Below are positions 13,155 through 57,300 of a stretch of 64,000 nt of DNA, piece after piece. The DNA is taken from positions 1-64,000 of IMG/VR virus record IMGVR_UViG_3300043395_001970; one strand, given 5' to 3'. Below the pieces are notes generated by a model. That model was not told the DNA's origin. It ran no database searches and saw only the letters and a list, made by a program, of their open reading frames with translations. Source of the DNA: a virus. Position 1 is the first letter of the stretch; every line of letters starts with the position of its first letter. The translations under genes were made by a program, and so were the position numbers.

Positions 13155-15671
13155 TTAAAATGAAAAGAATTTTTCAGCCGTTTTAGCTGCGGAAAGAACC
13201 TCTCCCCAACCCAATGCTCCATAAAAATCCTCTAATTTCTTTAGGAGTTCTCTTTCAAAGATTTTATCATAATCTATATATTGGGTTACCAATTCAATTA
13301 CTTCAGGTGCATCATTGTGTCCTTTGAATGCCAATCCTTCCAATCCATATGGATTTTGTTTTAGATATACCCATTTTATTTTATCACCATCTTTCATAGG
13401 TTCGTATTTAGATGGACAATTAAAGTGAATCAACAATTGATTATGTGCAATTGCTGCCTTAACGTGTGCAGGTGTTGCTGATTTAAATTGGAACATAGCC
13501 GTTTGTTCTTTTTTCTTTGGAAGATATTTAGATAACTCCTTAACCGCAGAATTCTTAGCTATACTAACAACATCCATTTTGGAAAGAGATTTTTTGAAAG
13601 CTTGAATCTTATCTGTCAAAATATCTTCAGTATCACCTCTTAGAATTTGAATAAGAACTTCACTCATAAACTTACGGAACTCCGCAGGGTATGATGAACG
13701 AACCACATCCAAACCTTTCACATCCAATCTATCCATAGGAATACCATTCTCCGCAATAATCCATTGAGCATATCTTTTCTTAGCAATCCATATACCACTT
13801 CTACTAACAAACTCTTTCTTAATTTGGAAACGATGTTTATCTACATTGAATATTTTTTTACCCAACATGTTATAGAAGTTATTGATATAGTCTTGCGTTT
13901 CACCAGCAATCTCATCAACTAATAGGGCAATCTCTTTATCATCCTTTTGTTTCCACTCAGGATACCTATGTTCTAATAAAGGTACTGCTGAAAAGAATAC
14001 GGAATCAGTATCAATGTAAATGTTAAAATCTTTACCTTGCGTTCCTAACTCTTTGTTATATTTTATGTTTACCATTTCAGCAGTTGATTTAATCACTGTC
14101 TGACCTGTTAAGGTTACAGCTTCAGCGTTATCAACATCATAGAAACGGAAAGCAGGTAATCCCAGTACTCCATATAAAGAGTTCAATAAGATTTTTTGTA
14201 CTGTCTGTCTTTTCTTATAGAATGCATACATCTCTTTATTACCTTCCTGTCCATATTTCTTTTCCAATTTACGGAATTCAACCCTTTGGTCAAACCACAA
14301 ATCCAATATATCAGGAATACATCCTACTTTTTGTGTTGTATAGAGTACACCATTTGATGATACTGCGTATTTACTTTCATCAAATAGCTTCTTTAGATTT
14401 TCTTTTGAAATTTGCCTACCACCAATTGAATACATATCAACTTCACCTCTTAGGAATTTCTGAGCATCCCAATCATCAATCTTTGCCACCTTCGTTTCAG
14501 GTGATATGTTTGTTGTCATAATGATTGATGGATATAGTGAAGTTAAGTCCAAGTCATAAATCCATTCGTACTTACCAACGATAGGTGCCTTAACGTATGC
14601 TCCGATAAACTTTTCTTCGTTGTTCTCTCTGATAGCTTCCATACGTTCTTGTCTATCCGCAGGTTTGTTAGGTGCTACAATATTTTTACGTTTAAGGTAA
14701 CATAGCATCGCACCTTCTAAAAATTTAGATGAATAAACAAAATCTTCGTATGGTACGTGTCCAGCATGGCATATACCTCTACAAAGGTCTACAAACTGCA
14801 ACTTACGTTCCATATCAACCACCAATTGTACATCCACTAAGTTATACTCAATGAACTTCTCAATATCGTTATGAAACAATTCATCTAATTTACCCTGATA
14901 TTCAACCTTACCTCTACCCAACTCTTTCATAGCTACCGTATCCAAACGATAGTTATCTAATTCAACATAGGTATATGCTTTGTATAATCCGATGTAATCC
15001 AAATAGGATACACCAGCCATAAAGAATCTCTTACGATAGGGTGACCAGAAACACTCACCAATAGGTGATAATCTATTAGCATGTCTTGCACCTAATAATC
15101 TTTTAATACGATTGTACAAATAAGGAGTATCAAAGTAATCAATGTTCCATCCCGTAACGATTGATGGATTTATCATTTCATATAATTCCAAATACTTTAG
15201 AATCAAATCTCTTTCATCTCTAAATGGGATTACACTACGATTACCGGTATTACTCTCTTTCATCTTACCGGCTTTATCCATAATCAAAACCCAATAGTGG
15301 TCAGTTGCAGAATCATGCAAACCAATAGCGGTTAATTCATTCTCTGCCTTTTCCATATCCGGCAGACCTGTTTCCATTTCAACTTCAATATCAAAGGTTA
15401 GAATAACGTGTCCATCTGAAGGTATATCCGAATCGGTATAGGTATCAACTAAAATACGAGTTGTTTCCGGTACATCCGATTCAAATAATTCAGGATCATC
15501 CTTTTTAAATTTGAATATTTTTGTAAGCTTATCACCATAAAGGGAAGTGTATTCGCCTCTGTCAGCTTTTTCGTATGCATATCTTACATATGGAAATGAA
15601 CGATAACCAAGCCTATCATCCCACAAATGTACTAAATTCTTCTCTCTTTGGTAATATACGTTTTGATACAT
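13155..15671 (-). CDS. 43: Family B DNA polymerase, gp43-like
   Basis: Replicative DNA polymerase with 3'-5' proofreading, 838 residues (T4 gp43 is 898). Exonuclease motifs: Exo I LTFDIEVEM (D94, E96), Exo II GWNIDYFDTPYL, Exo III YNLVDVQLV. Polymerase motifs: A DLTSLYPSII (about 375), B KILLNSLYGVLG (about 494), C YIDTDSVFF (about 555), with the catalytic aspartates in place. The C-terminus ends in helix ...AEKFFSF, suitable as a clamp-binding tail. It follows the DGQHR-domain gene by 13 nt. Confidence 0.97.
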   Translation of the reverse strand: MYQNVYYQREKNLVHLWDDRLGYRSFPYVRYAYEKADRGEYTSLYGDKLTKIFKFKKDDPELFESDVPETTRILVDTYTDSDIPSDGHVILTFDIEVEMETGLPDMEKAENELTAIGLHDSATDHYWVLIMDKAGKMKESNTGNRSVIPFRDERDLILKYLELYEMINPSIVTGWNIDYFDTPYLYNRIKRLLGARHANRLSPIGECFWSPYRKRFFMAGVSYLDYIGLYKAYTYVELDNYRLDTVAMKELGRGKVEYQGKLDELFHNDIEKFIEYNLVDVQLVVDMERKLQFVDLCRGICHAGHVPYEDFVYSSKFLEGAMLCYLKRKNIVAPNKPADRQERMEAIRENNEEKFIGAYVKAPIVGKYEWIYDLDLTSLYPSIIMTTNISPETKVAKIDDWDAQKFLRGEVDMYSIGGRQISKENLKKLFDESKYAVSSNGVLYTTQKVGCIPDILDLWFDQRVEFRKLEKKYGQEGNKEMYAFYKKRQTVQKILLNSLYGVLGLPAFRFYDVDNAEAVTLTGQTVIKSTAEMVNIKYNKELGTQGKDFNIYIDTDSVFFSAVPLLEHRYPEWKQKDDKEIALLVDEIAGETQDYINNFYNMLGKKIFNVDKHRFQIKKEFVSRSGIWIAKKRYAQWIIAENGIPMDRLDVKGLDVVRSSYPAEFRKFMSEVLIQILRGDTEDILTDKIQAFKKSLSKMDVVSIAKNSAVKELSKYLPKKKEQTAMFQFKSATPAHVKAAIAHNQLLIHFNCPSKYEPMKDGDKIKWVYLKQNPYGLEGLAFKGHNDAPEVIELVTQYIDYDKIFERELLKKLEDFYGALGWGEVLSAAKTAEKFFSF

Positions 15672-18835: not shown

Positions 18836-19636
18836 TTACCAAAAATTTTCAGTACCTTCCGGCACTTCGTATGTTGTTAAATGATGTACAACTTCAGTAT
18901 TAAAATCCACACTATTTTTTGGATAGGGTTTGATTTCATGCTTCAGTGCTTTCATCAATTGTTTTTTTTCTTTCTTATCTTGCGCCAATATTTGAATGTA
19001 TCGGTGCTTTGGTGGCTCCATTCTTCTCCAAAACTCTTTATATCCCTGCTTACCAATTTCTCTTTTAAGATGGTCTAAGTTACCACTACCCCACATTGAG
19101 AATACAGTTCTACTATGAATCCAATCGTATGGTTCTTTTTGTAGTGAGATACCCCAATTAGGCATCAATGCAATATCAGATGAAATACCCTGATATATCC
19201 AATTGGTTGCTTGATATATTCCACCCAAATGCTCTTGTCCAGCATCTGCATAGGATAGTAACAACTTAATGTTCTTATCATTTTCTTTCAACCACTTAAA
19301 GGATTGTGATATAGCAAATGATTCAATATTAGAACCATACCCATCATCACAATACAAACGTGTCAACTCTAATGCATTATCTTTCGTCAATCCTTCACAA
19401 ATAGAAGTTGCTGCTTTTGCTCCAACAGGAAATCCATAAATGATACAGCCAATTAGTTTATCACCATCAAAGGTACTAGCATCCTCTGCTTTGTAATAGA
19501 TACCTAATGCGTAACGGCAAGAAGTCCAAGCGTGAGTGTAGTGTTTCTTAACAATAATATCCTTAGCGATATTCTTTGCTATTGGTGCTACATACACTTT
19601 ACTTACATCACAATATTGTTTACCTTCAACTTTCAT
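18836..19636 (-). CDS. mom: Mom-like DNA modification protein, copy 1
   Basis: 266-residue member of the Mom family. Phage Mu Mom converts adenine in DNA to an N6-carbamoylmethyl form that blocks restriction. Family signature seen at residues 128-150: SYADAGQEHLGG then IYQATNWIYQG. Also present are the N-terminal IIVKKHYTHAW, ELTRLYC and YGSNIESFAIS blocks of this GNAT-like fold, and a basic C-terminal PKHRYIQILA...KALKHE segment. It overlaps the 83-residue gene by 11 nt and precedes the GT-B gene. It shares its first 10 residues exactly with copy 2 (MKVEGKQYCD), so the pair arose by duplication. Confidence 0.82.
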   Translation of the reverse strand: MKVEGKQYCDVSKVYVAPIAKNIAKDIIVKKHYTHAWTSCRYALGIYYKAEDASTFDGDKLIGCIIYGFPVGAKAATSICEGLTKDNALELTRLYCDDGYGSNIESFAISQSFKWLKENDKNIKLLLSYADAGQEHLGGIYQATNWIYQGISSDIALMPNWGISLQKEPYDWIHSRTVFSMWGSGNLDHLKREIGKQGYKEFWRRMEPPKHRYIQILAQDKKEKKQLMKALKHEIKPYPKNSVDFNTEVVHHLTTYEVPEGTENFW

Positions 19637-19891: not shown

Positions 19892-19923
19892 CAAATATAC
19901 AAAATTATTTTGAATCTACCAAA
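19892..19923 (-). promoter_or_regulatory. Host-type promoter, TTTG-N20-TATATTTG
   Basis: -33 TTTG at 19923-19920 and -7 TATATTTG at 19899-19892, spacer 20 nt. The -33 box and part of the spacer lie inside the last codons of Mom copy 2. It drives the 83-aa protein, Mom copy 1 and the GT-B gene with a leader of roughly 8 nt. Confidence 0.75.
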
Positions 19924-20678
19924 TTTATCGGGTCCATTTTATAAACTTCATCAATAATATCTAATTCTACCTTCGGATATGGTAAGACCTCATGTTTAAG
20001 CGATTTTAAGAGTGCTTTACGTTCCTTCTTATCTTTGGTTAGAATGTACACATATCGGTGCTTACGGGGTTCTCTTTTAATCCAGAATGGGCTTGTAACC
20101 ATTGTCTGAATTATCTTTGGGTCATTCGTTCCGTACTTCACATAGGATGTTCGAGAATGATGCCATTCATCATCCTCACTCCATTTGAAACTCCAACTAT
20201 CTGACCATCTGATTTTGTTACCCTGATATATCCAATTGGTAGCTTGATATACCGTTCCTAAGTGTCCAGCGTTTGGGTCTGAATAAGATATTAGTGCTTT
20301 GATGTGTAGTGCGTTTTCTCTTAACCAATCAAATGTTCTTCCAACAAACCAGCTCTCAATATTACTACCATACCCATCAAATACAAAAAGGCGTGTCAAT
20401 TCTAACACACCATCTCTTGGTAGTAATTCAGAAATAGATGCACCTGCATTTCTACCAACCGGGTCACCATAACAGGCAACTCCAACTAACTTTTCATTTA
20501 CACCACTAAAAAAAGAATGTTCTTCATCAGACATATAAAATAATCCTATGGCATAGGATACCTTTGTCCATATACCACTATAATGGTTATTGACAATAAT
20601 ATCCTTTGCTATATTCTTATTGATTTCTCTTATTGAGAATTTGGATATGTCACAATATTGTTTACCTTCTACTTTCAT
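19905..20678 (-). CDS. mom: Mom-like DNA modification protein, copy 2
   Basis: 257-residue paralogue of the downstream Mom-like gene, with SYSDPNAGHLGT then VYQATNWIYQG at residues 131-153, plus KNIAKDIIV, ELTRLFVF and YGSNIESW blocks. SYSDPNAGHLG is closer to the usual phage Mom form (SYADP-x-x-GH) than copy 1. The middle (residues 155-190) differs clearly between copies while the ends are conserved, which suggests different base or cofactor preference (inference). Its start overlaps the HTH gene by 4 nt. There is no com-like translational activator that I recognise. Confidence 0.82.
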   Translation of the reverse strand: MKVEGKQYCDISKFSIREINKNIAKDIIVNNHYSGIWTKVSYAIGLFYMSDEEHSFFSGVNEKLVGVACYGDPVGRNAGASISELLPRDGVLELTRLFVFDGYGSNIESWFVGRTFDWLRENALHIKALISYSDPNAGHLGTVYQATNWIYQGNKIRWSDSWSFKWSEDDEWHHSRTSYVKYGTNDPKIIQTMVTSPFWIKREPRKHRYVYILTKDKKERKALLKSLKHEVLPYPKVELDIIDEVYKMDPINLVDSK

Positions 20679-28269: not shown

Positions 28270-29100
28270 TTATGCTAACAAATGATAGTATTCTTTAAAG
28301 TGTTTTATACGGTCTGCCAATCCAATTGTACCACCATTTACTCTTTTAGTAATAGATGTTACTACCGCATCGGTTGCACCACCATCAGCCATTATATGTA
28401 ATTTATTCTTATTGAAGAACCATGCTGCTGAAAGTAAAGCATATTTAGATGCTACTACATCAGGATTAGATGGAATATCTTCACCGATTGCTTTACCAAA
28501 TGCGGTATAGTTATCCTTTCCTGTCAATTGGATATAACCACGTCCTCTGAATTTGTAGCCTTCGCCACTCGCCTCATCACCATTACCCATACGAGATGCA
28601 TATACTTTATTTGCAATCTTTTGTGGGTTTCTTTGATATGCGTTTGCTATAGCTTCAGTTGGGAAATACTTTTTGAATATACCCATTAAACCTTTTGCTG
28701 AATAGTTTAAGTTTTCTTGCGTTGCTTTGAATCCGCCACTCTCATGTCCACATTGTGCTAAGAAGTGTGCCAATCTTAATGGAGTGTTAATTTGGAATTT
28801 AGCTGCCGTATCAGGAATCATTGCGATTACTGCATCTGGAATATGACCTTTTAATTTATCTAATTTCAATCCACCAACAGGTGCAATAGGTGCAGGTGGT
28901 GCAGGCGCTGGTGTGTTTTCACCCATAATTTTTGCCCAGGTTCCATCTCCTACAATACCATCAGGATTTAATCCATTTTTTAATTGAAATGCTTTTACAG
29001 CTTCTTCAGTTTTTGGACCGTAGTTTCCTATTGGTTCTAAACCTAATTTTGTTTGTAGTTGTTTAACGTGTTCGTTATTATCACCTCTTTTTAATAACAT
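28270..29100 (-). CDS. Endolysin: peptidoglycan-binding domain + GH19-type catalytic domain
   Basis: Cell-wall hydrolase, 276 residues from the ATG chosen here. N-terminal PGB_1 domain (LKRGDNNEHVKQLQ to GIVGDGTWAKIMG), an Ala/Pro linker, then a GH19 chitinase-like lysozyme domain with FLAQCGHESGGF (catalytic Glu at about 120) and GRGYIQLTGKDNY. The frame is open for 18 more codons upstream, but those overlap the preceding gene; the ATG at 29100 is 8 nt past that gene's stop and begins directly at the first PGB repeat. No signal peptide, so a holin or other export route is needed; none is recognised here. Confidence 0.9.
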   Translation of the reverse strand: MLLKRGDNNEHVKQLQTKLGLEPIGNYGPKTEEAVKAFQLKNGLNPDGIVGDGTWAKIMGENTPAPAPPAPIAPVGGLKLDKLKGHIPDAVIAMIPDTAAKFQINTPLRLAHFLAQCGHESGGFKATQENLNYSAKGLMGIFKKYFPTEAIANAYQRNPQKIANKVYASRMGNGDEASGEGYKFRGRGYIQLTGKDNYTAFGKAIGEDIPSNPDVVASKYALLSAAWFFNKNKLHIMADGGATDAVVTSITKRVNGGTIGLADRIKHFKEYYHLLA

Positions 29101-29107
29101 CCTAATA

Positions 29108-29536
29108 TTATTTATTTTCGTTAGATATAACTTCTTTACCTTCACCAAAATCAATTACTTCAAAAACTCTTGTCTGAATTTTCTTAGTACCTTCAGCGTT
29201 GGTTAATATTATTGAATTTTTAAATTTCTGCCAATTGATGACAAATGAATTATCCAATACACCACCATTTTCTTCTTTTACCAGTTCGTTAAGTGCGTTG
29301 ATAGTATATAGTGTATTTGATTCTTTCTTTCTGTGTATTAAAATAGTGTTTTCCAACGGAGTATCCGGTTGGAAAGCTGTATCAATATTGTATGTGATGA
29401 ATAACTCATCTAAATTACTCTTATTTTGGAGTATATAGATGTAGTTATACACTATGTGGTAAGTTTCACGAATTAATTGTAATGTATTTTGTAACTCACC
29501 TTTCGTTGTAAACGTACATAGTAACTGTGTTTTCAT
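29108..29536 (-). CDS. Unknown late protein, 142 aa
   Basis: Not recognised. Mixed alpha/beta composition, no signal peptide or membrane segment. An N-terminal helix with TTKGELQNTLQLIRETYHIVYNY (split: TTKGELQNTL, QLIRETYHIVYN) is followed by beta-rich segments (NTILIHRKKESNTLYTIN). It has its own late octamer 30 nt upstream and is probably co-transcribed with the endolysin. Confidence 0.7.
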   Translation of the reverse strand: MKTQLLCTFTTKGELQNTLQLIRETYHIVYNYIYILQNKSNLDELFITYNIDTAFQPDTPLENTILIHRKKESNTLYTINALNELVKEENGGVLDNSFVINWQKFKNSIILTNAEGTKKIQTRVFEVIDFGEGKEVISNENK

Positions 29537-29607: not shown

Positions 29608-32600
29608 TTATCCGTATATATTTTTGTTAGCTGCTTCTAGTATTTTTGCAAATCTTTTATCTAATTGCATTTCAAACTTAATTTGGCCGCCATATCCAAC
29701 ACCATCTTCTCTAGCAACAATAGTGGCAATTGGTATTACTCTACCTTTTTTACCAGCTTTGTATGCCAAATATGGTGGTTCTTCATTGGTTACCGCAAAT
29801 AAACCTTGTTTGATTTCTTCAAAGTTTGATGTTTGGAATATATTTTGCAATACAGCTCTATCTAAAGAATTAGGTCCAATTGCCATAGATTCTTCACCTT
29901 CACCAACTGCTTTCAATGGAAACTCCTCTCTAATAGCACCCAACATACCTTGCTTCAACTTAGGATTACTTCCCAAAGAACTAATTACAGCTTTTTGGTG
30001 AGCTTTGTGTACATCTTGTACATTTTGTAGATATTTAACTGCTCCTTTATCTCCCTTCTTTGCTAAAGTGGTAATTGCTGATAATACTACTTTATTAATA
30101 TCTCTACTACCTTTACCTGCTTGCAATTTAGCTACTGCTGTTACTAAATCTATTTTTTTAGATTTAACAATTGCTTGGAATTCTGGGTCATTAGCTACTG
30201 CATTTTGTAATTTTTTAATATTAGCTTTTCCAAAATCTCCTAAAGCCTTTCTTTGATTCTTTTGATATACATTTGGATTAATATCATCAGGAATATTCGG
30301 GTCCCATTCAAACAATTTACCCGTGCCAGAATTTAAGAAGTTTACTGCTGTTGATTTCTTTAAAGATACTTCATCTAATATTTCTTGTCCATCTTTGGTT
30401 TTAATTTTGAAATATGCATCAGTTGAAAATCCTTTATTCTTTTTATAATCAGCCAATCCCATTGCTTCAACCTCACCTTGAGTATCCCAACTACCAGCCT
30501 CAATTGTTGCGCCAGGATATTCTTTAGCTAATCTATTTCTAATAGCTCTTCTGTTGTTTACTGCGGCTTTAATCCAACTTGTACCAACAACCCTACTACC
30601 TTCAACTTTTAATTTAGGGTTTGCTGCTATTTGTTGCTTTTCATGCTCTAATAAAGAGTTAAATAATGCTGCCGCTTGTTTATCATCTAATGTAGTTGAA
30701 ATCATAGTCATCAACTCACCCGCTTGTGCTGATATTTGTCCAGCTCCACCAGGTAAATCTGAAAAATGTGACCACTTTGCTGTTTCTGTTGTTGCTCTAG
30801 TGTTCATCATTCTTTCCAATGCTTTTAAATGTCTTGGTGGAACTTTTGCATTAGCATATAATTCTTTTGGTAATTTATATGGAGCCGGTGGAGGTCCTAT
30901 TTGGAATTTTTTATTTTTTTCTGCAAATTTAGCATCATCAGGTTGTTGCTTCTGAAGGAATTCTTTTGATTTTAAAGTATCTACCTTAGAAAGTGTTTTG
31001 TCTTTACCACCAATAATTCTAGAACCTTTGGTTGGTTTAGTAGCTTTTGCGGTTGGTTCTAAATCTTTTTCTTTTGTTTTTCTAAAACCCAAACCTTGAC
31101 CAGGAATTTCTTTTGGTTTTTTTTCAGTTGCTCCTAATTCACTATTACTAACGCCTGCTTTTTTAAGTAATCCAACTGCTGATTGATATGCTTGTATTTG
31201 TCCTTTGTTTTTAGAACCTTTGTATTTTAGTGCAGATGCTACTTTAATATCTTTTCCTGTTTCTGGATTTTTTACCGTTTGATTCAAAACATCATCTGCT
31301 TTTTTTATAGGATTTTCATTTAAAATCTCTAATATAATTCCATCAATTATTGAAATTTCTTTTTTCATTGTATCTTTTTCTTTCTTTTTATTATATGAAT
31401 CAATCATTTCTTCCATTTGTTCAGGACTAATTTTCATATTTTCCAACCCATCAGCAATCATTTCGGTAAACTTAATAAATTGTGCATCCATTTCAGCTTC
31501 ACCTTCAGCATCCGCAAATAATGCTGCTCTACCAGCTCCTTTTAGGAAAGTTTCTGCAATAACATGTGGTACAAATTCAATAGCAACGTGCTTAGCAAAA
31601 CCAACTGCACCATAGGATAATCCACCCATAGCTGCACCAAATAGTGCGGTGGTTACTATTTTAGTACCAACTGATTTAATTGCATCTTTTTCGTGATGTG
31701 ATAGAGAATTCCATCCACCCGCTTCACTAAATAGTTTTCCAACAGCAACACCAGCTGTTTTGAATTCTTTTACTTCATGTTTAAACCCATCTTTTACTGC
31801 TTTCCAAGCACCAGAAGCTTTATCTCTTAACCTTTCACTAATACTCTTTCTTGCCTCAGAACCAGGCTTATGATACCCCATATTGAAGTATTCCTTTTCT
31901 TTCTTATTCCAATTTTTTAACTTTTCTTTTATTCTAGATAAAGTTGATGGTTTTGTAGAAGTTGCTGGTTTTGGTTCATCTTTTTTCTTTCCCTTACCAC
32001 TCATTGTTTCAATACCCATCTTTTCAGCAAAAGCATTTGCTCTTGGGATGTGTGTTTCAATATCCTCATCAACAATACGAACTTTCATTTTAATTGGTTC
32101 TTTATCACCATTAGGCGGAGTATGTTTCATATTATACGCCTGAATTGTTGCCCATCTATGGTGCCCATCAATTACATATCCATCTCGTGTCACCATTATA
32201 GGTGCTGTAATAAATGGATTGTTCGGGTCTTGCTCTAAAGAATTTACCATGCCCACAATTTGCTCGCCAACTAATTCACTTTGAGTTGCTTTTAGTGATG
32301 ATGCAGGTACTTCAACAGGATCACTTACATTTATACCTTCTGATTTTAAATAATCTTCAAATTCTTTTTCTACATTAACATGCTGAGTGTTTTCTTTTGC
32401 ATACAAATCATCATACTCTTGTTTCTTGTCTGCAGGGATTTCACCATCGTTAGGTAATCCCATTTTCTTTCTTACATTTTGGTCAGCAATTCTTTTTGCT
32501 TTTGCTTCACCCTCAGAACCAGGTTTTGGTTTACCACCTAATTGTGGCATTTTATCTCTTGGTATTCCTATATTTTCATCACAGAATTTATTTGTACCAG

Positions 32601-35589
32601 GAATTGATACTTTACATAAATCCCAATGTGGTGGTTTGTTTTCATCCTTAACTGCAGCAGAAAATTCTTTTTGTAATTCAGGATTATCTTTTAATGCTGG
32701 GTGTTTGAATCCAAATGGTAATGGATGTACTTCTTTAAAATCTGCTGGTAGTTTACCCTCAGCTTTCATTTTTTCAATTACTGCCTTTTGTGCTCTTTCT
32801 TCTTCATCCAATACATCTTTGTAAAAATCATCTAACTTTGTAGAAACTTTATTTACAAATTTAGGATTTGGATTTTCTTCATTTTGAGCAGGTATATCAG
32901 TTCCCTCAACATTACCCTTATCATCAACTTTTGGTTTTAACTTTGGGTCAGGTTTATATTCACCCTTTGGATTACCAGGTTCCGCCGGCTCCTCTTTTCT
33001 AGTTGGGGGAGCAACTTTTTTATCTGTTGGTGGTGTTTCACTCTTAGGAGCTTCTGGTTTTTGTTCGGGCTCTTTGTATGATGCCGCTGCTGCTTTAGCT
33101 TTTTGAGTTGCTTTTTTTACATCGTTTGGTGGTAATTCTTGAACTTTAATTTGTTTACCATTTGATAAAGTTGCCGTAATTGTTTTTTCAAATAAAGCAA
33201 ATACATCTTCAGTAATAATATCCGAAAATGCTAAATCAACAACCCACTCCGTTCTTACATATTTTGCAGGTCCATTTGGCTTATCGGAATAATAACCACC
33301 ACCTACACTATAAATTTTATTTCCAGAAGATGATGTTGCCTCTTGACCAGGCTTTTCTTTTTTAATATCTTCTTTATCATCTTTCGTATCTTCCGGCTTT
33401 TCTTTTGGTTGCTTTGTATCCTTTGATTTTTTTGACATTTTATCAACAAGCTCAACATGACTTTCACCGGCAATTGTAATAGGTATTTTACCTTGTGCAG
33501 TTAATTCTTTATTTTTTTCAATTAAATTTTCATCTCTAATTTCATTAAATGCTACTTGAATATCATTTATTTTTGTTCCTTTATCGCCATTATCTTCTGG
33601 AAATGCTAATCTATATAATGTTCCTTTATCTCCACTACCTTTTGGATTTTCTTCACTTGGAGACTCTCCAGTTGGGTTATCCCAATTTTCTATTGGTGGT
33701 AATCCTGCTTCTTTAGCTGCATCTTGTAAGAATTGTTTACCATCATCATCTAAAAAATCATTTGGTGACATTGTATCAGTACCCTCACCCTGTCCAATCA
33801 TACTAGCCCAATTACCAGCTTTAACTTGAGAATCGTTAAATCCAGTTTTTTCTTTTTGTTTTTGGTATAGTTTGGATTGGTCATTATGTACATCCATATC
33901 ATCACCATCCCATGTATCTACACCAGCACCCATTTCTTTAAACTTCGGAGCTGCATATTTCATCTCATCGTTAAATTCTAACTCACCTGCATCATTAGTT
34001 GCTCCGCCTTCACCTACAAACACAACATCTTTCCATCTTTCTTTTGGTATCTTAGATTTAACATCATCCAATATATCATCAACCATTGCTGTGTTTCCGT
34101 GCTTTGTTCCATATACGAATCCACCACCTTCCATTTCCATTGTTTGGATTTCTTCACCGGATTTCTTTCCTTTAAATTTTTGTGCTTTAGATTCCGGGTC
34201 ATCATTGGCAGGTTCTCTCTTTGCTGGTTCAGATGGTTGTTGTTCTCCGGCAGTACCAGTTGTTTCACCTTGCTTTTTAGGTGCAATTCCTATATCTTCT
34301 GCAAACTTATTACACATTGGAATTGCATCTTTAATATCCATATCAACAACTTCACATTTCATTGGTATTTGCTTATCAGGATATTTTGCGTTATATGCTG
34401 CTATTGCTGCCCATCTATGGTGTCCATCAATTACAAATCCATCTCTACTAACATATATAGGACCTGTTATACCTGGGTGGTTAGGGTCTTTTTCTAAAGC
34501 TCCCATCATTCCAACTACTTTATCACCACCCAATTCAGATTGCGTTGCTTTTAATTTATCAGCAGGTACTTCAGTTTGAGTTGTTGTAATTCCTTTTTCT
34601 TTTAACATTTCTCTAAACACAGGTTCAGTATCTACTTCACCATCTTTGTTTAGTGGCATTTTTTCTGCTTTACTACCAGGAACCGGCTTACCTTTGAATT
34701 GTGGCATTTGGTCTCTTGGAATACCTAAGTTATCATCACAATATAAGTTAGTACCCGGCACAGTTATATCACACAAATTAATATCAGGTGCTTTTTCACC
34801 TTTAGCTTTTGCATCAGCAACAATTTGCTGAACTTTACTAATATCCGTATTGAATTTTTTTAATTCTTCTTTACCAATTCCATCTGGAATATCAGATGGT
34901 GCTCCAAATGTATCAGGATCTGCTTCAGGTATTTCATTCTTTACATCTTGTGCTGGTATTGGTTCAAACCCGTCCTTCTTTTTAGGTTCTTCTTTTGGCT
35001 TTTCAGCTTCTTTATCTTTTTCAGCATCTGCAGCTAACTTAGCTTGAGTTTCTTTTTCTTTATCCAAACGAGCAGCCATAGCCGGGTCAACTTTAGGGTC
35101 AAACATAGCTTGTGCTTGCTGTTGTTTTTCTTTTTCAGCAGCTTGTTTATCTTCACCACTTTTTGGTTCTTCTTCTCCTTTTTTACCACCCTCACCACCT
35201 AATTCTTGATTTAAGGCATCTCTTTCAGGAGAACCCTCTGGTGGTAAAACCTTTTCAGCTGCATCTCTTGCAGGTGTTCCTTCTGGTTGTCTTAAAAGAT
35301 TACCAACAATACCATCTTTTTGATTACCTTCTTTATCTTTATAAGAAACTTTTTTATTAAGGATAGGATTTGAAAAAGATTTTTCTTCTTCTTTTACAGG
35401 TTGAGGAGTTTTTCCTTTTTCAGTAATAAGATTTTGGACTAATTCTTCTTTGATATGAGACAATCCCATTTCAGAAAGTACAATACTTAATTCTTTCAAA
35501 TGAGATGGGTTTTGTGGGTTTGGCATACCATCATTTACTCTATATGCCCATTCTTCAATTATTAAATTAACAATACCAGTTACGTTCAT
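29608..35589 (-). CDS. Giant multidomain (polyvalent-type) protein with duplicated DGHHR domains
   Basis: 1993 residues. After a low-complexity Glu/Lys/Pro/Gln-rich region come two related units, about residues 268-430 and 990-1190. Each has an L-C-x-[IV]-[TS]-[IV]-PGTN motif, GIPRD-[QK]-MPQ, [AS]-x-[KS]-LKATQSEL, and VIDGHHRWA-[AT]-I, a ParB/sulfiredoxin-like signature. Between them are a region with GGGFVYGTKHGNTAMVDDI and charged linkers. Around 1300-1345 is a hydrophobic stretch (TTALFGAAMGGLSYGAVGFA). Residue M1407 begins a segment (MKKEISIIDGIILEILNE) resembling the protein's own N-terminus. A C-terminal part near 1700-1750 has GFSTDAYFKIKTKDGQ and ILDEVSLKKS, possibly nuclease-like. 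The make-up recalls phage polyvalent proteins that are packaged and injected with DNA; that role is inference. Confidence 0.65.
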   Translation of the reverse strand: MNVTGIVNLIIEEWAYRVNDGMPNPQNPSHLKELSIVLSEMGLSHIKEELVQNLITEKGKTPQPVKEEEKSFSNPILNKKVSYKDKEGNQKDGIVGNLLRQPEGTPARDAAEKVLPPEGSPERDALNQELGGEGGKKGEEEPKSGEDKQAAEKEKQQQAQAMFDPKVDPAMAARLDKEKETQAKLAADAEKDKEAEKPKEEPKKKDGFEPIPAQDVKNEIPEADPDTFGAPSDIPDGIGKEELKKFNTDISKVQQIVADAKAKGEKAPDINLCDITVPGTNLYCDDNLGIPRDQMPQFKGKPVPGSKAEKMPLNKDGEVDTEPVFREMLKEKGITTTQTEVPADKLKATQSELGGDKVVGMMGALEKDPNHPGITGPIYVSRDGFVIDGHHRWAAIAAYNAKYPDKQIPMKCEVVDMDIKDAIPMCNKFAEDIGIAPKKQGETTGTAGEQQPSEPAKREPANDDPESKAQKFKGKKSGEEIQTMEMEGGGFVYGTKHGNTAMVDDILDDVKSKIPKERWKDVVFVGEGGATNDAGELEFNDEMKYAAPKFKEMGAGVDTWDGDDMDVHNDQSKLYQKQKEKTGFNDSQVKAGNWASMIGQGEGTDTMSPNDFLDDDGKQFLQDAAKEAGLPPIENWDNPTGESPSEENPKGSGDKGTLYRLAFPEDNGDKGTKINDIQVAFNEIRDENLIEKNKELTAQGKIPITIAGESHVELVDKMSKKSKDTKQPKEKPEDTKDDKEDIKKEKPGQEATSSSGNKIYSVGGGYYSDKPNGPAKYVRTEWVVDLAFSDIITEDVFALFEKTITATLSNGKQIKVQELPPNDVKKATQKAKAAAASYKEPEQKPEAPKSETPPTDKKVAPPTRKEEPAEPGNPKGEYKPDPKLKPKVDDKGNVEGTDIPAQNEENPNPKFVNKVSTKLDDFYKDVLDEEERAQKAVIEKMKAEGKLPADFKEVHPLPFGFKHPALKDNPELQKEFSAAVKDENKPPHWDLCKVSIPGTNKFCDENIGIPRDKMPQLGGKPKPGSEGEAKAKRIADQNVRKKMGLPNDGEIPADKKQEYDDLYAKENTQHVNVEKEFEDYLKSEGINVSDPVEVPASSLKATQSELVGEQIVGMVNSLEQDPNNPFITAPIMVTRDGYVIDGHHRWATIQAYNMKHTPPNGDKEPIKMKVRIVDEDIETHIPRANAFAEKMGIETMSGKGKKKDEPKPATSTKPSTLSRIKEKLKNWNKKEKEYFNMGYHKPGSEARKSISERLRDKASGAWKAVKDGFKHEVKEFKTAGVAVGKLFSEAGGWNSLSHHEKDAIKSVGTKIVTTALFGAAMGGLSYGAVGFAKHVAIEFVPHVIAETFLKGAGRAALFADAEGEAEMDAQFIKFTEMIADGLENMKISPEQMEEMIDSYNKKKEKDTMKKEISIIDGIILEILNENPIKKADDVLNQTVKNPETGKDIKVASALKYKGSKNKGQIQAYQSAVGLLKKAGVSNSELGATEKKPKEIPGQGLGFRKTKEKDLEPTAKATKPTKGSRIIGGKDKTLSKVDTLKSKEFLQKQQPDDAKFAEKNKKFQIGPPPAPYKLPKELYANAKVPPRHLKALERMMNTRATTETAKWSHFSDLPGGAGQISAQAGELMTMISTTLDDKQAAALFNSLLEHEKQQIAANPKLKVEGSRVVGTSWIKAAVNNRRAIRNRLAKEYPGATIEAGSWDTQGEVEAMGLADYKKNKGFSTDAYFKIKTKDGQEILDEVSLKKSTAVNFLNSGTGKLFEWDPNIPDDINPNVYQKNQRKALGDFGKANIKKLQNAVANDPEFQAIVKSKKIDLVTAVAKLQAGKGSRDINKVVLSAITTLAKKGDKGAVKYLQNVQDVHKAHQKAVISSLGSNPKLKQGMLGAIREEFPLKAVGEGEESMAIGPNSLDRAVLQNIFQTSNFEEIKQGLFAVTNEEPPYLAYKAGKKGRVIPIATIVAREDGVGYGGQIKFEMQLDKRFAKILEAANKNIYG

Positions 35590-35595
35590 AAGTTA

Positions 35596-36204
35596 TTAAA
35601 ATTTGTGGTCAGGTTCTTCACATATCATTTCTAACTCATACCAATGAAATTTTGGTCTTTCGTTAAGGAAAACAAAACACTTCCATTTTTTTTGTTTTTC
35701 AAAGTAGATGTGTTTTTGAATGTGTGATGGAACTGCTGCACCTGTTGCTACTCTTTTTGCTGGAGTATCAAAGAATGATTTTATTAAAACAGTCAAAGGT
35801 TCTACATCATCCCATTTTCTTTCTTGCTCTTCCAACAATCTCCACTCACCTCTATTAAGGTATTGGTCTTGCATTATTGAATTTAAATATGAGAATGTTT
35901 GCTTTAAGTTCACTTCGTTATCAGAGAATGTTGCTGCAGGAGCTCCATGTCCTTTATCGTAAATGTTTGCTTTGTAATCTTCACCATCTGATGTTTTGAT
36001 TCCCTTTTCAGTATAGAAATCCATATGTCCTCTATTAACATTTGTAGGCCTGTTTGTAGAACGATACTTAATGATTAGGGGTTGTTCTAAAGATTGTGAA
36101 TAAAGTACATCAAACACTTCATTTTTAATTCTAACATCAGGCAATTGTGCCAAAGAAGTTACCGAAACTAAAAGAAACGATAATAAAACAAAGATTTTTT
36201 TCAT
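35596..36204 (-). CDS. Secreted DNA/RNA non-specific endonuclease (NUC/beta-beta-alpha-Me)
   Basis: 202 residues with a clear Sec signal peptide (MKKIFVLLSFLLVSVTSLAQ, cleavage after Ala19 or Gln20). The mature part has NRGHMDFY, the catalytic DKGHGAPAATFSDN (DRGH-type, H86), and LNRGEW with the metal-binding Asn (N117) followed by LLEEQERKW, the order seen in Serratia-type nucleases. The frame is open 13 codons further upstream, but that extension would mask the signal peptide and covers the late octamer, so the ATG at 36204 is preferred. The enzyme should act in the periplasm or outside. Degrading incoming competitor DNA or clearing DNA at lysis are both possible. Confidence 0.82.
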   Translation of the reverse strand: MKKIFVLLSFLLVSVTSLAQLPDVRIKNEVFDVLYSQSLEQPLIIKYRSTNRPTNVNRGHMDFYTEKGIKTSDGEDYKANIYDKGHGAPAATFSDNEVNLKQTFSYLNSIMQDQYLNRGEWRLLEEQERKWDDVEPLTVLIKSFFDTPAKRVATGAAVPSHIQKHIYFEKQKKWKCFVFLNERPKFHWYELEMICEEPDHKF

Positions 36205-36228
36205 ATTATAGCATATTTTTGTATATAC

Positions 36229-36236
36229 TATAAATA
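36229..36236 (-). promoter_or_regulatory. Candidate late promoter octamer
   Basis: TATTTATA (context GTATATTTATAGTATA), 25 nt before the preferred ATG of the secreted nuclease. Confidence 0.5.
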
Positions 36237-36242
36237 TACCCA

Positions 36243-37523
36243 CTAAAGGTTTCCGTAAGTTTTTCCCCAGCTTGCTTTGATTGGAAACCCACCATCTTCC
36301 AATATTCCTTTCAATCCCTTAATTAACTCCTTATCCACATCAACAGGCACATCAAATAGGAACGAGTCATAAGTGTATAGATTCAATGAGATTCCAGTTC
36401 CCTTAATGTAATCCAACACCCTACGCATTTTCTCAACGTTTACTTCAGTTTCAAATGCCTGAAGGAGATAGTTAAATACCTTTTGTGGATTTGCCTGTTC
36501 TACCCAACTTAGTGGAATCAATCGGTTTGGGGTACGGATACAATCACACTCTACACTCTCATCCCAAAAATGGTCTATGAAATCGGCCACCTTATCAAAG
36601 TATGGTATTTGGCGGAACTCATCATCAATACCACCATATAGTAATCGGAATGTAACACCCTTAGCCTCATCAATTCCACAACCATATTGGTCAGCTAACC
36701 ATTGGTGAACGTTTCCATCCGGCATATCGTATCCCACCAACTTACCAATCAATCGAGGGTGATAAGCGTTATAGTCCATTTGTAGGAATATCCCATCGGC
36801 TATGAAACAATCTCTACTACCATCCGATTTGTTTAGGGCGGCATAGTTCACACCACCATGTCTATTGGAAGGTCTACCTGTCACCGTAAATGGATTGTAT
36901 TCGGTGAATACGGTATCACCTTTTAAGTGTTTGGAAGCTTGAGGCCATCTATCAATAAATTTTTCCCCAACGACACGGATTCCGAATCCTTCAATCTGAG
37001 AAAGGGTAGGAATGAATATATCGTTGTACCAATTATAAGTTTTACTCTTTTGGTTTGTATGTTTTAGTAATTCGGGTTCTACTGCTTCCGCAAGTTTAAG
37101 AATGGGAATGGATTGAATGATGTCTTCTCTATAACCTTTGTGTAATAAAGGAGCTACTAAGTGTTGTAATGGTTGAGAGTAGTCTATTGTTTCACCGGTC
37201 TTTAAGAAATAAGCGGTGTCAACATCATTCAGTCCTTCCCTAAGTGTAACAAAAGATTGGAGTAGCTTTTTCTTTTGAAATACCCACTTTTCACCGGCGG
37301 TATTCAACACACCTTCTATTTGCTCATTAGAGAGTGATAGAGCGTCTGTGTGTTGTTGTGGTAGTATATACCTGTCCGATTGGGTTCTTACGAATATAAA
37401 CGAAATAGTGGTGTTTAATGGGTGCTTATCATTATCTACCCATAGCGGATACCAAAGGGATACTTCAGTTTCCAACTTTACCTTTAATTCGTTTAATTCA
37501 TCAATAGACTCAACAATTCTCAT
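36243..37523 (-). CDS. Divergent family A DNA polymerase-like protein
   Basis: 426 residues from the preferred ATG. The pattern of a Pol I polymerase domain is visible: TGRPSNRHGGVNYAALN (the TGRLS...PNLQNIP region), FLQMDYNAYHPRLIGKL (motif A, DYSQIELRVLA-like, with the Asp), GVTFRLLYGG (motif B end, NFGIIYG-like) and LYTYDSFLFDV (motif C, with one Asp). The N-terminal ~190 residues show no convincing exonuclease motifs. The frame is open back to 37559, but that would read through the tmRNA terminator; the promoter's -7 box ends 6 nt before the ATG at 37523, implying a leaderless mRNA. The phage therefore has two polymerases. Activity is not assured because motif residues diverge. Confidence 0.68.
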   Translation of the reverse strand: MRIVESIDELNELKVKLETEVSLWYPLWVDNDKHPLNTTISFIFVRTQSDRYILPQQHTDALSLSNEQIEGVLNTAGEKWVFQKKKLLQSFVTLREGLNDVDTAYFLKTGETIDYSQPLQHLVAPLLHKGYREDIIQSIPILKLAEAVEPELLKHTNQKSKTYNWYNDIFIPTLSQIEGFGIRVVGEKFIDRWPQASKHLKGDTVFTEYNPFTVTGRPSNRHGGVNYAALNKSDGSRDCFIADGIFLQMDYNAYHPRLIGKLVGYDMPDGNVHQWLADQYGCGIDEAKGVTFRLLYGGIDDEFRQIPYFDKVADFIDHFWDESVECDCIRTPNRLIPLSWVEQANPQKVFNYLLQAFETEVNVEKMRRVLDYIKGTGISLNLYTYDSFLFDVPVDVDKELIKGLKGILEDGGFPIKASWGKTYGNL

Positions 37524-37528
37524 AACTA

Positions 37529-37560
37529 CAAAGATACAAAAAAAATCCCAAACTACCAAA
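37529..37560 (-). promoter_or_regulatory. Host-type promoter, TTTG-N20-TATCTTTG, inside the tmRNA terminator
   Basis: -33 TTTG at 37560-37557 sits in the loop of the terminator hairpin; the 20-nt spacer holds the 3' stem arm and T-run; the -7 TATCTTTG is 37536-37529. Confidence 0.78.
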
Positions 37561-51388: not shown

Positions 51389-54300
51389 TTACTTATTCAA
51401 ACCTAATTTTTCTTCCAAAATTTTTATTTTAGCCTTTAATTCTTCAATCTGAGTTTGTTGTTCTTTCATAGCGTTTACTAATAATGCAGGCATTGCTCTA
51501 TCTCTTATTGCTAAATATCCAGCATCATCAGGTCTTACTAATAATGGTTCAACATCTTCAACTTCTTGAGCGATAAAACCAATATCATGTCTTAGATTTG
51601 TTGTTTCATATTCATCAGTACCCTCTTTCCAATCAAATTCAACACCTCTCAATTTCAGAACTTTATCTAATGCATTTTCGTAAAACTTAACATTATCTTT
51701 TAATCTTCTATCAGATGGAGAACCATATGCAATAATATTGTTTGATGCAATAATCACACCATCATATCTCAAGTTAATGTTTGCACCACCACCTCTATTA
51801 CCAGAGAAGATTCTCAAACCATAAGAAGCACGAAGTGATAAATATCCGTCATTCACGTCTGCCAAATCACCATCATCGGATACCCACATACCACCACCAC
51901 CATAGTTATCAAAGTTTGCACGAACTACATATGGAGTACCAATAGTATCATCATTCAAATAGTATCTCTGCCATCTAGAAGACCAACCACCCCATCTTAC
52001 AACGTTATCACCATCCAAACCTAAGTTCAATGCGTAGTAACCACCTTTGTGGAATGACATGAACGCACCATTGTTACCAGTTGAGTATGGTTGCAACATT
52101 GCCGAATCGGTTTGTGTTGCGTAGTATCCTCTATTGTAAGTAAAGTAAACTCTTGAATAGTGATTATAATCGTAAGTTGGAATACAATATTCACCTCTGT
52201 TGTTAGAGTCAACCATTGCTTTCCAACCACTATTGTTTGGCCAAGAGTTTCTAAACCACAATCTATCTACAGGTCCACCAACTAATTGCCATCCATATCC
52301 TGCATTATAACTCCAAGTATAGTGGTATGATTGAACACCCACCCAGTGAGATGTACCAGGAGGTTGGTTAGCCGGGTTTGACCAAGTATCAATATCACCA
52401 CTACCCCAATCCATTACCCAGTTGAAGTCCGTAGTACCCCAACCCATATTACCTGTCCAATAATAAACATCACCAGTGTAATCTTGTGGTCTTCTCCAGT
52501 TTGACCTACCTGTCAATGATATATTACCTTTACCTCTATTTTCTAATCCTAACCATTGAGAACGAGAGTTAGGATTCATATAGTATCCAGTATCATCTCT
52601 ATCATAGTAAATGTATGCTCTTGCATCATTCATATATGTGATACGATACAACTCCATATGGGCGTTACCATATTCAATACGAATCTGCCAGTTTCCGGAG
52701 TTATTTAACATACCGAAACCACTACCATCCCAATATCCAGCGTATCCTCTTAAATCAGATTCGTAGTTGTTGTAGAATACTATACCACCATATCCATATC
52801 CACCACCGGCTGCTTTCCAATATCCGTTATTAGAATACCAGTGCATTCCTCTATTGTTATTATACAAACCTTGTCCAGAGTTATTATTTCTAAACCAAGC
52901 ATTTGAATATATGTCATTGAAAGTTGGAGAAGCATCGGTTCTTACGTTTTGGTTGATGTAGTTACTCATCCAACCCATATATCTATTCCAATAGTTACCA
53001 TCTCTTGCAAACTGATGAGATTCTAAACCATCAGAACCATATCTCATAATATGGTAACCATTTGCGTAAGCTTGTAGATATAAGTGAGAACTATGCCATT
53101 GTATCTTATAGTATTCACCCGTCCAACCACCAGGATCAGAATACAACATATAACCAGGATTGATGTATATGTTATTTGCATTTACAAAGTTTAATCTATT
53201 TGTAGAAGCAGGGTCACAATAATATCCTGAATTATTTGTATCATAGAAAATAGTTGCGTAGAAATCACCACCACTACCTAAGTACATATTTCCAACCCAG
53301 AAGTTGTACATCGCCAAACGATATCCATTGGCGTACATTTCATTTACGTTGAAATAGAAGTTAGAACGGTCAGTATAAATGTGAGCATGTCCAGTATTTG
53401 CCGGTCCAAACTGAATCCATCCAGAAGGTGTATAATGTCTCCATCCCCAATCACCGGCACCAAAGTAGAATCCACTATTACCATAATCTATCGTTGAAAG
53501 ACGAGAACGTCCATTTGGGTCAACAAAGAATGCGGAGTTATTTCTATCATAAAGTATTGGTGTGTATATTTGACCAGGAACGTGAAATTCAGGTCCATAG
53601 AAATATCCATCACCTTCTATGTTTCCAGTACCGGCCGCAGATATATAATCGTTTACGTTTCCATATGTTCCAGTTGAATCGAATACAATTCTACCAGTTG
53701 CTGCAATTCTTATACGGTCATGTATAGTTGATGTATCAGGATCATTACCTTTAAAGATTAACAATTCAGATTCATCACCATTTCTCCAAATTCTTTCTAT
53801 AAGAGCAGTGTGGTTATATGAACCAGGATTATCACCAACAACTCCATAGAAATATAATCCATTTGATGTTGTTGAAATACCACTTAAATAGATACCGCTA
53901 AATCTAGAATCACCATTAGGATTGACGTAATATGTAGTATCATTTGCATCATAATAGATACCCGCTCTCATTTGGTCTCTTACCCAAAGGTGTCCATCAG
54001 GGTGGAACTGAGCCACACCTGTCCATCCAGAAGTTAAGATACTGAATGATTTTGATGAACTCATATGGATACCAAAACCTTCTCTACCCCAATATCCTCT
54101 TGATGTTGAGTGTTTAATCAAACCTTCATCCCATGTACCAGCTCTTAACCAATAAATGTAAGGCCATTGGTCAGCGTTTGATGTATCATATGCAGTACCA
54201 TTAACATAGAAGTAACCACTTTGAAGTGCTACTATATTTGATAAACTTGTTGGGTCTACATAATATGCTGTGTTGTTATAATCATAGAAAATTGGAGAAC

Positions 54301-57300
54301 GCATTTGATTGTATGCGTAGAAAATACCACTACTAAATTCACCCCAAGCATTATTAGAACCTCCACCAAAATAGATTACGTTACCGTCATAATAATTCAA
54401 ATACAAACCATATCCACTACCAGCATCTAAGTGTAAATTACCATTTGTTGTTGCTACTGATGCAAATGCCGAATCAATATATCCATTTCTACCATCACCA
54501 CCAACTAATAAATAAGCTCCCCAAGTGTTATTTGGACCAAATAATGCACCACCTCTCATTCTCAATGCAGTCATTGATGTTGAGTTAGGGTCTATGTAGT
54601 ATCCACTATCATTTGCATCATAATAAATTGTACCATAAACACGTCCACCAAAATATAATATTGGGTCTCCACTCTCTCTACCGATATAAGCAAACTGATT
54701 ATTACCGGCGGTGTTATCCATAAATCTTACATAAGAGTTGTTATTATTATCATTAGCATCAACTCTTAGGATAATATCGTTAAATGAGTTTATAGATATT
54801 GAATCGGTAAACGTACCATTCAAGTCAGTAGAAGCAATACCATGAAACTGATACGAATCATATGAAGCGTTCCAGTCAAATGAAACATATGCTAATCTGG
54901 TCATATATGAACTCCACGAACCATAGTTAGCCCATATAGAACGTTCACTATTTAATCTAAACGAGTTATCGGAACGAATGTAGTTATCATTGTAAAGAAC
55001 TTTTGAACCTCTTACTCTTAAATAAGTTCCATCAACCATATACCAGCCACCACCCCAACCAAATCCAATTTCCTCATCTCTCATAAATGATGCAGCACCT
55101 CTACCAAATACGATTGCGTCTTGGTTTCCTAATAATTGAAGTGAACCATTTATGAATACTCTGTTATTTGTAATTGTACTAATTACTGAAGCGTTATCAG
55201 TTGCGGTATATGAAAAATCAGTAGTTGCAATACCCATTCTTTGGTCGGATGAGAAGAATGCTGCCAAACCACCATTTATTGAAGTAAAATCAGAAGTGTT
55301 ATTAGTATAAATGTATAAAGAACCTCCTGTATTTGTTCTACCAGCTACTATATAGTTACCACCATTATTACCTAATTGTAAACCATACCAACTCAATGAG
55401 CCGTGATAGTTATTTGAACCATCATATCTAGCTCTAAAATAATTTCCACCAGGAATATATATGTCACCAGTTGCAACATTTCCTCTACTTGTTACAGTAG
55501 CTAATGTTTCCGAACCAGCCGTACCAGTAATATTTCCTGTTATATTAGCTGTAGTATTATCTAAATGGAATGCTGCTCTTGGAATTGTTACAGAATAACT
55601 TGAGTGATTTGAGTAGGTGAATGGACCATGCGTCATATTCAAATTAGAATATGAAATCTTAACATTATAGCTTAACCCAGCTCCACAATTTGGATTTACA
55701 ATTAATCTTAATACCCAACCTGTTGATACATGGTCACCATTAATACCCAATAAACCATTTGCGTTACTACCATTCCACAATCCAACATTATTGTTAGAAC
55801 CTGCTGATAATATCAAATTAGATGAAATTCTATCACCAATGTAAACAATCCATTTTTTATATTCAACATAAGAAGTTTGTGTATAACCTCTATGAGAACC
55901 AATTACTTCAATTACAATAGAACTATCATAACCACCATATGAATTAATCGTACCAATTGTATAAATTCTTGCATTTTCATTACAAGCCGGCCAGTTATCA
56001 GGGGTTGAAACAACACCTTTAAATTCAGTATAGTTATCACTAAATGTATGAGAACCATATAATCTTGAAGACCTATTATAAAGACTTCCACCAGCATTTG
56101 GGTCTAAGAAGTATGAAGTACTAGCTACATCATATAGTATAGGTGTATAAAATGCACCATTTTGAGAATCAGGAGTTACATATACATCCTGATTTAGCAT
56201 TCTTAATGTTGTAAAATTACTATTTCCTTCTGTTCCTGTATTTAAATTAATTCTTTTTGATGAACCTCTATTTGAAATATTCATCGCACCAGCACCATCC
56301 AAATTCAATGATAAACCATCTGTAGCATATGCTGCATAAGAACCGAATGATTGAGTTCTACCACCTAAACCAAACCATGCTCTTTGTGAACCTTGGTCAT
56401 CATACATTCCTAATAACAAATAGTTACTAGCAGATGTATTGTCCCATCTCATAAATGGAGCGCCTGTATTATTAAAATCAGCCAATCCATTTATTACTAA
56501 TCCGGCAAATGTTACCGAATCCGATGTTCTTATATTTTGGTTCATTAAGTGAACTTCGGTCAAACCTTGTCCAGTATTAACCTGAGCAGATACTAAGTTT
56601 CCAGGTATTGTAAATGTACCTGCGCTATCTAGTCTACCAATTTGAGTCCATCCTATTGTTCTACCTGCTGTTGTAGTTTGGTCATTGTAGAAAGTAAATC
56701 CTTGGTTAAAATTAAGATATGTTGCTGTATCGGTTAGTGGGGCAATTAGTTGACCTGATGTAGCTGTATGCCTTACATTATATCCAATACCGCCATACCA
56801 TCCACCACTATAACCAGCAACCATACCTCTACCCTCAGAACCACCACTACCTAAGTTTACGTTGTATGTACCATTAGCATCATAAAAATTAGCAGCTCTT
56901 ACATTTGCATAAATTACAGTATCTGTAGTTCTTAGATTTTGGTCCATTAAGTAAACTTCGGTAGCACCTTGTCCAGTATCAATTGTACCACTAAGAATTA
57001 CATTACCATTAACCTGTAATGTATTATCTGCATACCATCTATCAGTTGATTCATCCCAATAGAATGAAACATTTGCTGATGAACCTCTCCTTACTTCAAT
57101 ACCAGCATTTTCAGATGGTGCTCCAGAAGTAAAGTTTGAATTTAATGTAATTATATTATCAGCTAATAAAATAGTTTCAGTATTGATTGTGGTAGTTGTA
57201 CCACTTACAGTAAGATTACCTGTAATTGTTGCATTACCTGTTACTGTCAATAGTGTACCATCAAATGTTAAGTTTTGTTCTACTGTACCATTTGGTGCCG

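Follow-up and report, generated by a model that had tools for sequence, protein, structure and literature searches.

A shuffled-module protein of 1993 residues in a Far-T4-like phage, probably an enzyme bundle delivered into the bacterium at infection

The window analysed here comprises 64,000 nucleotides (positions 1 to 64,000) of the IMG/VR virus record IMGVR_UViG_3300043395_001970, itself an 81.8-kb fragment. A preliminary description, made from the letters alone, had placed a 1993-residue protein at 29608-35589 and called it late and next to lysis genes. The ORF exists and starts with ATG, but the true coding strand is the minus strand (35589-29608, P0001); the plus strand of this interval is full of stops. 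Late expression could not be established, with the gene lying 6 bases downstream of w215 and DNA polymerase A, in the same direction, and ahead of the SSB-UvsX replication cluster. The T4 late-promoter string TATAAATA is absent immediately upstream of the ORF start, and its counts (3 on the coding strand, 11 on the opposite strand) are uninformative as a sign of T4 late promoters. The proximity to lysis genes holds in part: a GH19-type endolysin is near, with one small gene between (Table 1).

According to PHROGs, the surroundings include T4-like genes for DNA polymerase, clamp, clamp loader, exonuclease, tail fibres and endolysin. Sheath and tube in the flanking DNA were named by eye from sequence, and the labels UvsX, SSB, FEN and DnaB were likewise assigned by us. 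On the basis of this gene set and the literature, not of a marker tree, the phage is Far-T4-like, a freshwater relative of T4. Far-T4-type phages are described from water, with Bacteroidetes as proposed hosts (PMC7198788). The short DNA polymerase A-like ORF is found in the window alongside a T4-like DNA polymerase (13155-15671) and adjoins the 1993-aa-type gene in all close relatives. Elsewhere in the window, two adjacent paralogous ORFs of 266 and 257 aa (18836-19636 and 19905-20678) have no known function. Giant ORFs of 2796 and 2731 aa occur at window 51389-59779 and G000 73437-81632; the former matches tail-fibre families and the latter contains, by eye, long internal repeats.

Scans of IMG/VR yielded several hundred loci, in which we applied iterated profiles for eight modules (Nt, N2, ParB, M2, M3, HYD, SSAL and CT). 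The family comprises about 130 ORFs, with about 40 module orders among the complete ones, and the majority share one locus, DNA polymerase A-X-w142-[endolysin]-SSB-UvsX. Complete loci show the gene flanked by DNA polymerase A (often with w215) on one side and w142-(endolysin)-SSB-UvsX-FEN-DnaB on the other. The order of ParB and M2 is exchanged in L002, L031 and L034, and either module can also be a small gene of its own close to the endolysin (L152, L160, L161, L201 and L203). Compact proteins of about 550-700 aa carry CT behind Nt, and most relatives encode SSAL-CT at this locus as a protein of its own, tagged with a leader. Compared with the usual product of the locus, the window protein is enlarged, and it is the only family copy with two ParB units. 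At a different locus, proteins with a leader-like start carry an NMNAT/cytidylyltransferase-like domain fused to M2 and/or ParB (L034:9008-13063, L190:4519-10008 and L278:4510-8667); the L034 fusion also has a KTDG ligase-like C-terminal part.

Table 1. Features of the 1993-residue protein and its neighbours (window coordinates).
Feature	Residues and signature	Position	Strand	Basis
DNA polymerase A-like fragment, conserved upstream neighbour		36243..37559	-	
w215, upstream neighbour		35596..36243	-	weak 'nuclease' PHROG
Whole ORF (P0001)	1993 aa	29608..35589	-	
Nt, N-terminal helical leader, predicted capsid-targeting propeptide	1-57, ends ITE57	35419..35589	-	family conservation, site at the domain end, leader swapping in relatives
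N2, short post-site module	70-182	35044..35382	-	HMM family
ParB-like unit 1	240-440, DGHHR 388-392	34270..34872	-	
M2, TIKI/TraB-like candidate	471-720; GTKH497, E527, R685, GESH711	33430..34179	-	invariant pattern, model
M3, short module	748-830	33100..33348	-	HMM family
ParB-like unit 2	967-1195, DGHHR 1141-1145	32005..32691	-	
HYD, Gly/Ala-rich helical module ('membrane-like')	1219-1400	31390..31935	-	HMM family, model
Second leader-like helix and site	1408-1425, MKKEISIIDGIILEILNE	31315..31368	-	conserved ahead of C-terminal part in same-layout relatives
SSAL, short module	1431-1486	31132..31299	-	matches first post-leader module of small Nt-SSAL-CT proteins
CT, conserved C-terminal domain, PD-(D/E)XK-like candidate; stand-alone elsewhere	1523-1992	29614..31023	-	
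CT signature	S1722-x-D1724...E1740-V-S1742-L-K1744-K	30355..30426	-	invariant D and SLKK; kept in cyanophage relative
w142, conserved downstream neighbour, no function assigned		29108..29536	-	
GH19-type endolysin with peptidoglycan-binding domain		28270..29154	-	

The two DGHHR units recognized in the preliminary description share four motifs in the same order, PGTN (278 in unit 1, 997 in unit 2), GIPRD (289, 1008), LKATQSEL (346, 1099) and VIDGHHRWA (386, 1139). Against the 720 residues given there, the first two motifs recur after 719 residues and the last two after 753. The units are 46% identical over 226 columns (E 1e-60), far beyond chance, and DGHHR is invariant in the family alignment. 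In an AlphaFold model of unit 1 with M2 (mean pLDDT 88.7), the ParB part matches sulfiredoxin and ParB in the PDB (Foldseek probability 1.00, best E 0.01). The top match in a Pfam scan of P0001 is DUF1015, and the profile of the unit has four matches in the PDB, all SerK or a relative, confined to DGHHRWA rather than full-length (E 0.2-0.4). As in the SerK/DUF1015/sulfiredoxin/ParB-CTPase proteins (PMC12704722), the predicted fold is accompanied by the phosphate-binding (GxxR) motif DGHHRWA; unlike them, the window unit has an extra N-terminal PGTN..GIPRD..MPQ stretch and no HTH or ParA. P0001 has no ParB or HTH match in Pfam, and no ParA was found among the neighbours scanned in PHROGs. The model thus indicates a ParB/sulfiredoxin fold with a GxxR P-motif and not a partition ParB. 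Within this type of fold the NTP bound differs between proteins and specificity is not predictable (PMC12704722), and a DNase is therefore just one option for these units. The earlier label 'ParB-like' is correct for the fold, which by itself does not imply DNA cleavage; that the units bind or hydrolyse NTPs is our guess.

The presence of two homologous units in a single ORF could be explained by a recent tandem duplication within the gene. However, unit 1 is 94.9% identical to the single unit of L002 and more than 90% identical to those of L005 and L009, whereas no full-length unit exceeds about 50% identity to unit 2. Other modules lie between the two, and among 108 unit instances no second ORF contains a pair. 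A fresh duplication is accordingly extremely unlikely, and the identities suggest that the pair arose through mosaic assembly.

The M2 family alignment contains two invariant GX2H motifs, one invariant Glu and one invariant Arg, a pattern reported for TIKI/TraB enzymes (PMC6254334). Aligned with five TraB proteins by hhalign, M2 gives E 0.009 at a probability of 4%, with the last two motifs in register. M2 has no Foldseek or HMM match and no significant database match; a comparison with YbaP singly gave none, and a search of 84,980 prokaryote genomes found no relatives. Kinship to TIKI/TraB is thus a suggestion, and our guess is that M2 is a hydrolase of this kind. The stretch previously called membrane-like (about 1303-1345) is weakly hydrophobic (best 19-residue hydropathy 1.44), conserved and modelled as helices; the charged linkers are confirmed.

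The C-terminal part had been described as possibly nuclease-like. Its model is mostly above pLDDT 90, and the invariant D1724 and S1742-L-K1744 lie on neighbouring modelled strands. The best PDB match, the MspI restriction enzyme, is not significant (E 0.73, probability 0.11). The MspI motif, which we take to be D-x17-N-x-K, has a spacing equal to that of D1724, S1742 and K1744 in CT. A PD-(D/E)XK-like nuclease is our guess for this domain. By fold CT resembles a conserved hypothetical protein of cyanomyoviruses (BFVD E 1e-4), in which the S-D...SLKK signature is kept; the hhalign comparison is weak (0.04 for the whole, 0.001 for the core alone). Three variants of tblastn against annotated phages gave no match to CT, nor did its profile against 11 phage records including T4, RM378, HTVC008M and cyanophages. 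Profile matches to hemolysin E (E 0.004) were dismissed as a helical coincidence. The cyanophage protein (L304:13122-14792; Synechococcus phage ACG-2014c Syn7803C97_161) is present in 58 phage records, never with a function. Beside this CT-like gene, a 381-aa cytidylyltransferase ORF starts with MKKFSAFLSEAKK, very like the T4 leader MKTYQEFIAEA, a likeness by which cyanophages may package enzymes in the same way.

In T4, a short leader directs internal proteins into the head and is cut off by gp21 after the E of L/I-x-E; for IPIII, a stretch of 10 residues is enough to send it there (PMC9026906). The window protein has such a site, ITE57, at the end of Nt. Of 39 non-redundant members, 33 have an Nt domain ending in a gp21-type [LIF]-x-E; 2000 random draws on these proteins averaged 5.5 and never exceeded 13. 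However, [LI]-x-E is a short, common motif, and its strict form was fixed after the sequences were seen. A scan for hydrophobic-x-E leaders in T4 itself returned 22 of 333 ORFs. Among these are what we take to be the MKTYQEFIAEA internal proteins, gp22 and gp68 (neighbours of gp21) and Alt-type ORFs. Members lacking Nt start with short leaders like those of T4 internal proteins, such as MIRLKSLLREQ, MIKLKSLLKEAEE, MRLKNLLLEAEY and MNLYRQFITSLFLTEEE. A strict LxE leader is found in 12 of 34 such members versus 48 of 556 other ORFs (P 4e-5), and the loose motif in 23 of 34 versus 174 of 556 (P 3e-5). Two biases act on this test in opposite directions: the controls include further genes with leaders as well as a few redundant copies of the family, which makes it conservative, and the pattern was chosen with the family already in view, which makes it lenient.

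Local alignment further revealed the same mature sequence (EDVVKNKKTGNVYVV... or HIGYGRYK...) behind unrelated leaders, joined at the site (E 4e-25 for the pair L205/L015); a search by exact k-mers found no such swaps. We regard this exchange of leaders exactly at the site as the strongest indication of packaging. A protease of the gp21 family (PF03420) is encoded by 6 of 11 long relatives, and ORFs beside the gp21 homologue start with the same leaders (MIRLTDLLKEAEE, MKNLKELLNES and MNLKKLITES). In relatives with CT behind other modules, the junction is a conserved leader-like helix ending in FIDEA, IFNEA or, in the window, ILNE1425, and next comes the same module that stands behind the leader of compact CT proteins. 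This second site is most simply read as the fusion point of two leader-tagged proteins, which the protease may split again. In L279, at least eight nearby genes, including ParB-like and NMNAT-like ones, have leaders of the MKxxxTxExFLxEx type, although that of the ParB-like gene (LTLESFLEMRE) is imperfect. This run (L279:2221-11336), which also holds a possible ADP-ribosyltransferase-like (YHYTT) protein, is apparently a cluster of packaged effectors.

Leaders shared with proteins adjoining gp21, and charged, low-complexity linkers resembling those of core proteins, would also suit a structural or scaffold component of the head (gp22/gp67/gp68-like, or a decoration protein) that is packaged but not injected as an effector. 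We consider this distinctly unlikely, given the enzyme-like conserved residues in ParB, M2 and CT and the fact that relatives can lack or exchange the modules.

Confirmed or annotated virion proteins of other phages carry homologues of the ParB unit. A 149-aa protein of Ackermannviridae (LIMEstone1 ORF101/102, Det7 gp50; PHROG 2859) carries a homologous unit (PHROG E 5e-34), but is stand-alone, has DGSHR for DGHHR and lacks further modules. The LIMEstone1 homologue (ORF102 in the paper's table, ORF101 in the GenBank note) was detected in virions by mass spectrometry and is recorded as a confirmed structural protein; the table lists an unknown structural protein of 17.31 kDa with 5 peptides, and the computed mass is 17.30 kDa. 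In F116-type phages, the unit is part of a 3.8k-aa protein directly ahead of the lysis genes that is annotated as an internal virion protein. In both cases the homology spans the ParB unit only.

Among known systems, the window protein comes close to the polyvalent proteins of phages (Iyer et al. 2017, PMC5512222), above all to P1 DdrB, which bears a DdrB-like ParB domain, is processed and is present in the P1 head (PMC5512222, PMC9024508). The window protein resembles them as a giant domain mosaic with a ParB/Srx domain and frequent shuffling, and contains the two or more distinct globular domains in shuffled combinations by which they are recognized. The zincin metallopeptidase (MPTase) hub domain, common but not obligatory in polyvalent proteins, has no Pfam match in P0001. 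Unlike polyvalent proteins, the window protein has T4-type leaders and gp21-type sites, and its M2, HYD and CT match no named polyvalent domain; several of its modules are unnamed. With T4 IPI-IPIII and Alt (PMC9026906, PMC12373910) it shares a leader ending in L/I-x-E, a predicted prohead-protease cut and variable cargo. The T4 internal proteins are, however, small single-domain GmrSD inhibitors, whereas the window chain has a 57-aa leader and many domains. Known kinds, polyvalent proteins and T4 capsid-targeted cargo, are thus combined in a way that we did not find described in the literature examined.

The surroundings of the gene leave room for another explanation, an intracellular protein of DNA metabolism, accessory to the SSB/UvsX/FEN/DnaB cluster and never packaged, in which ParB and CT would handle phage DNA and the LxE sites would be incidental. 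The constant position between DNA polymerase A and SSB-UvsX-FEN-DnaB suits such an enzyme and counts against packaging. Other points against packaging are the length of Nt (57 aa, longer than the T4 leader) and the K, not A, after E57, and neither gp21 nor gp23 was identified in the 81.8-kb fragment. The cyanophage CT relative near UvsX, gp41 and MazG and the nuclease-like motif in CT point the same way. Against this stand the leaders and sites with their swapping and the ParB-unit homologues in virion proteins, and shuffling into about 40 arrangements is easier to reconcile with conflict proteins than with an enzyme at the core of replication. We therefore hold an intracellular role to be rather unlikely.

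The reading we favour, and think reasonably probable, is that the 1993-aa protein is a polyvalent internal head protein of a Far-T4-type phage that is cut, packaged and injected. Its start resembles the address label for loading the T4 head, so the protein probably brings a set of enzymes into the bacterium when infection begins. Nt would act as a capsid-targeting propeptide, as in T4 internal proteins, and the gp21-type prohead protease of the phage would cut after E57. A cut at E1425 would give an effector string (N2, ParB, M2, M3, ParB and HYD) and a C-terminal SSAL-CT protein; the pieces would be packaged alongside the DNA, injected, and immediately affect nucleotides, DNA or defences of the host. 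Conceivable targets of the modules are DNA, restriction enzymes, nucleotides, the cell wall or the membrane. The sequence anatomy, the leader motif, the swap at the site, the conserved locus, gp21 in relatives and the ParB/Srx fold are observed; cleavage, packaging and injection of this protein are what we infer. The proposal of an injected polyvalent protein in the preliminary description is thereby supported in part and indirectly, by the leaders, the site swaps, gp21 in relatives and the LIMEstone1 and F116 homologues.

In T4, the injected proteins Ip1-3 inhibit GmrSD enzymes, which have a ParB fold (PMC12373910). A more speculative scheme, which as a whole we rate as very unlikely, is that the injected ParB units are decoys or competitors for host ParB-fold restriction proteins (DUF262/GmrS, DGQQR-type). 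Far-T4 phages would then counter type IV restriction by reshuffling copies of the sensor fold, the phage studied here would gain two specificities from its pair of units, and M2 and the nuclease-like part of CT would hit other host targets after the prohead-protease split.

Far-T4 phages are common in water, but the proteins they inject have gone undescribed. If the favoured reading, an injected internal head protein, is true, a leader followed by [LI]-x-E would offer an easy criterion by which to recognize the injected arsenal of uncultured phages in the T4 superfamily, and M2, HYD and CT would become testable new effector domains. The locus would then show an arsenal that is built and reshuffled as one long chain, which the prohead protease may cut.
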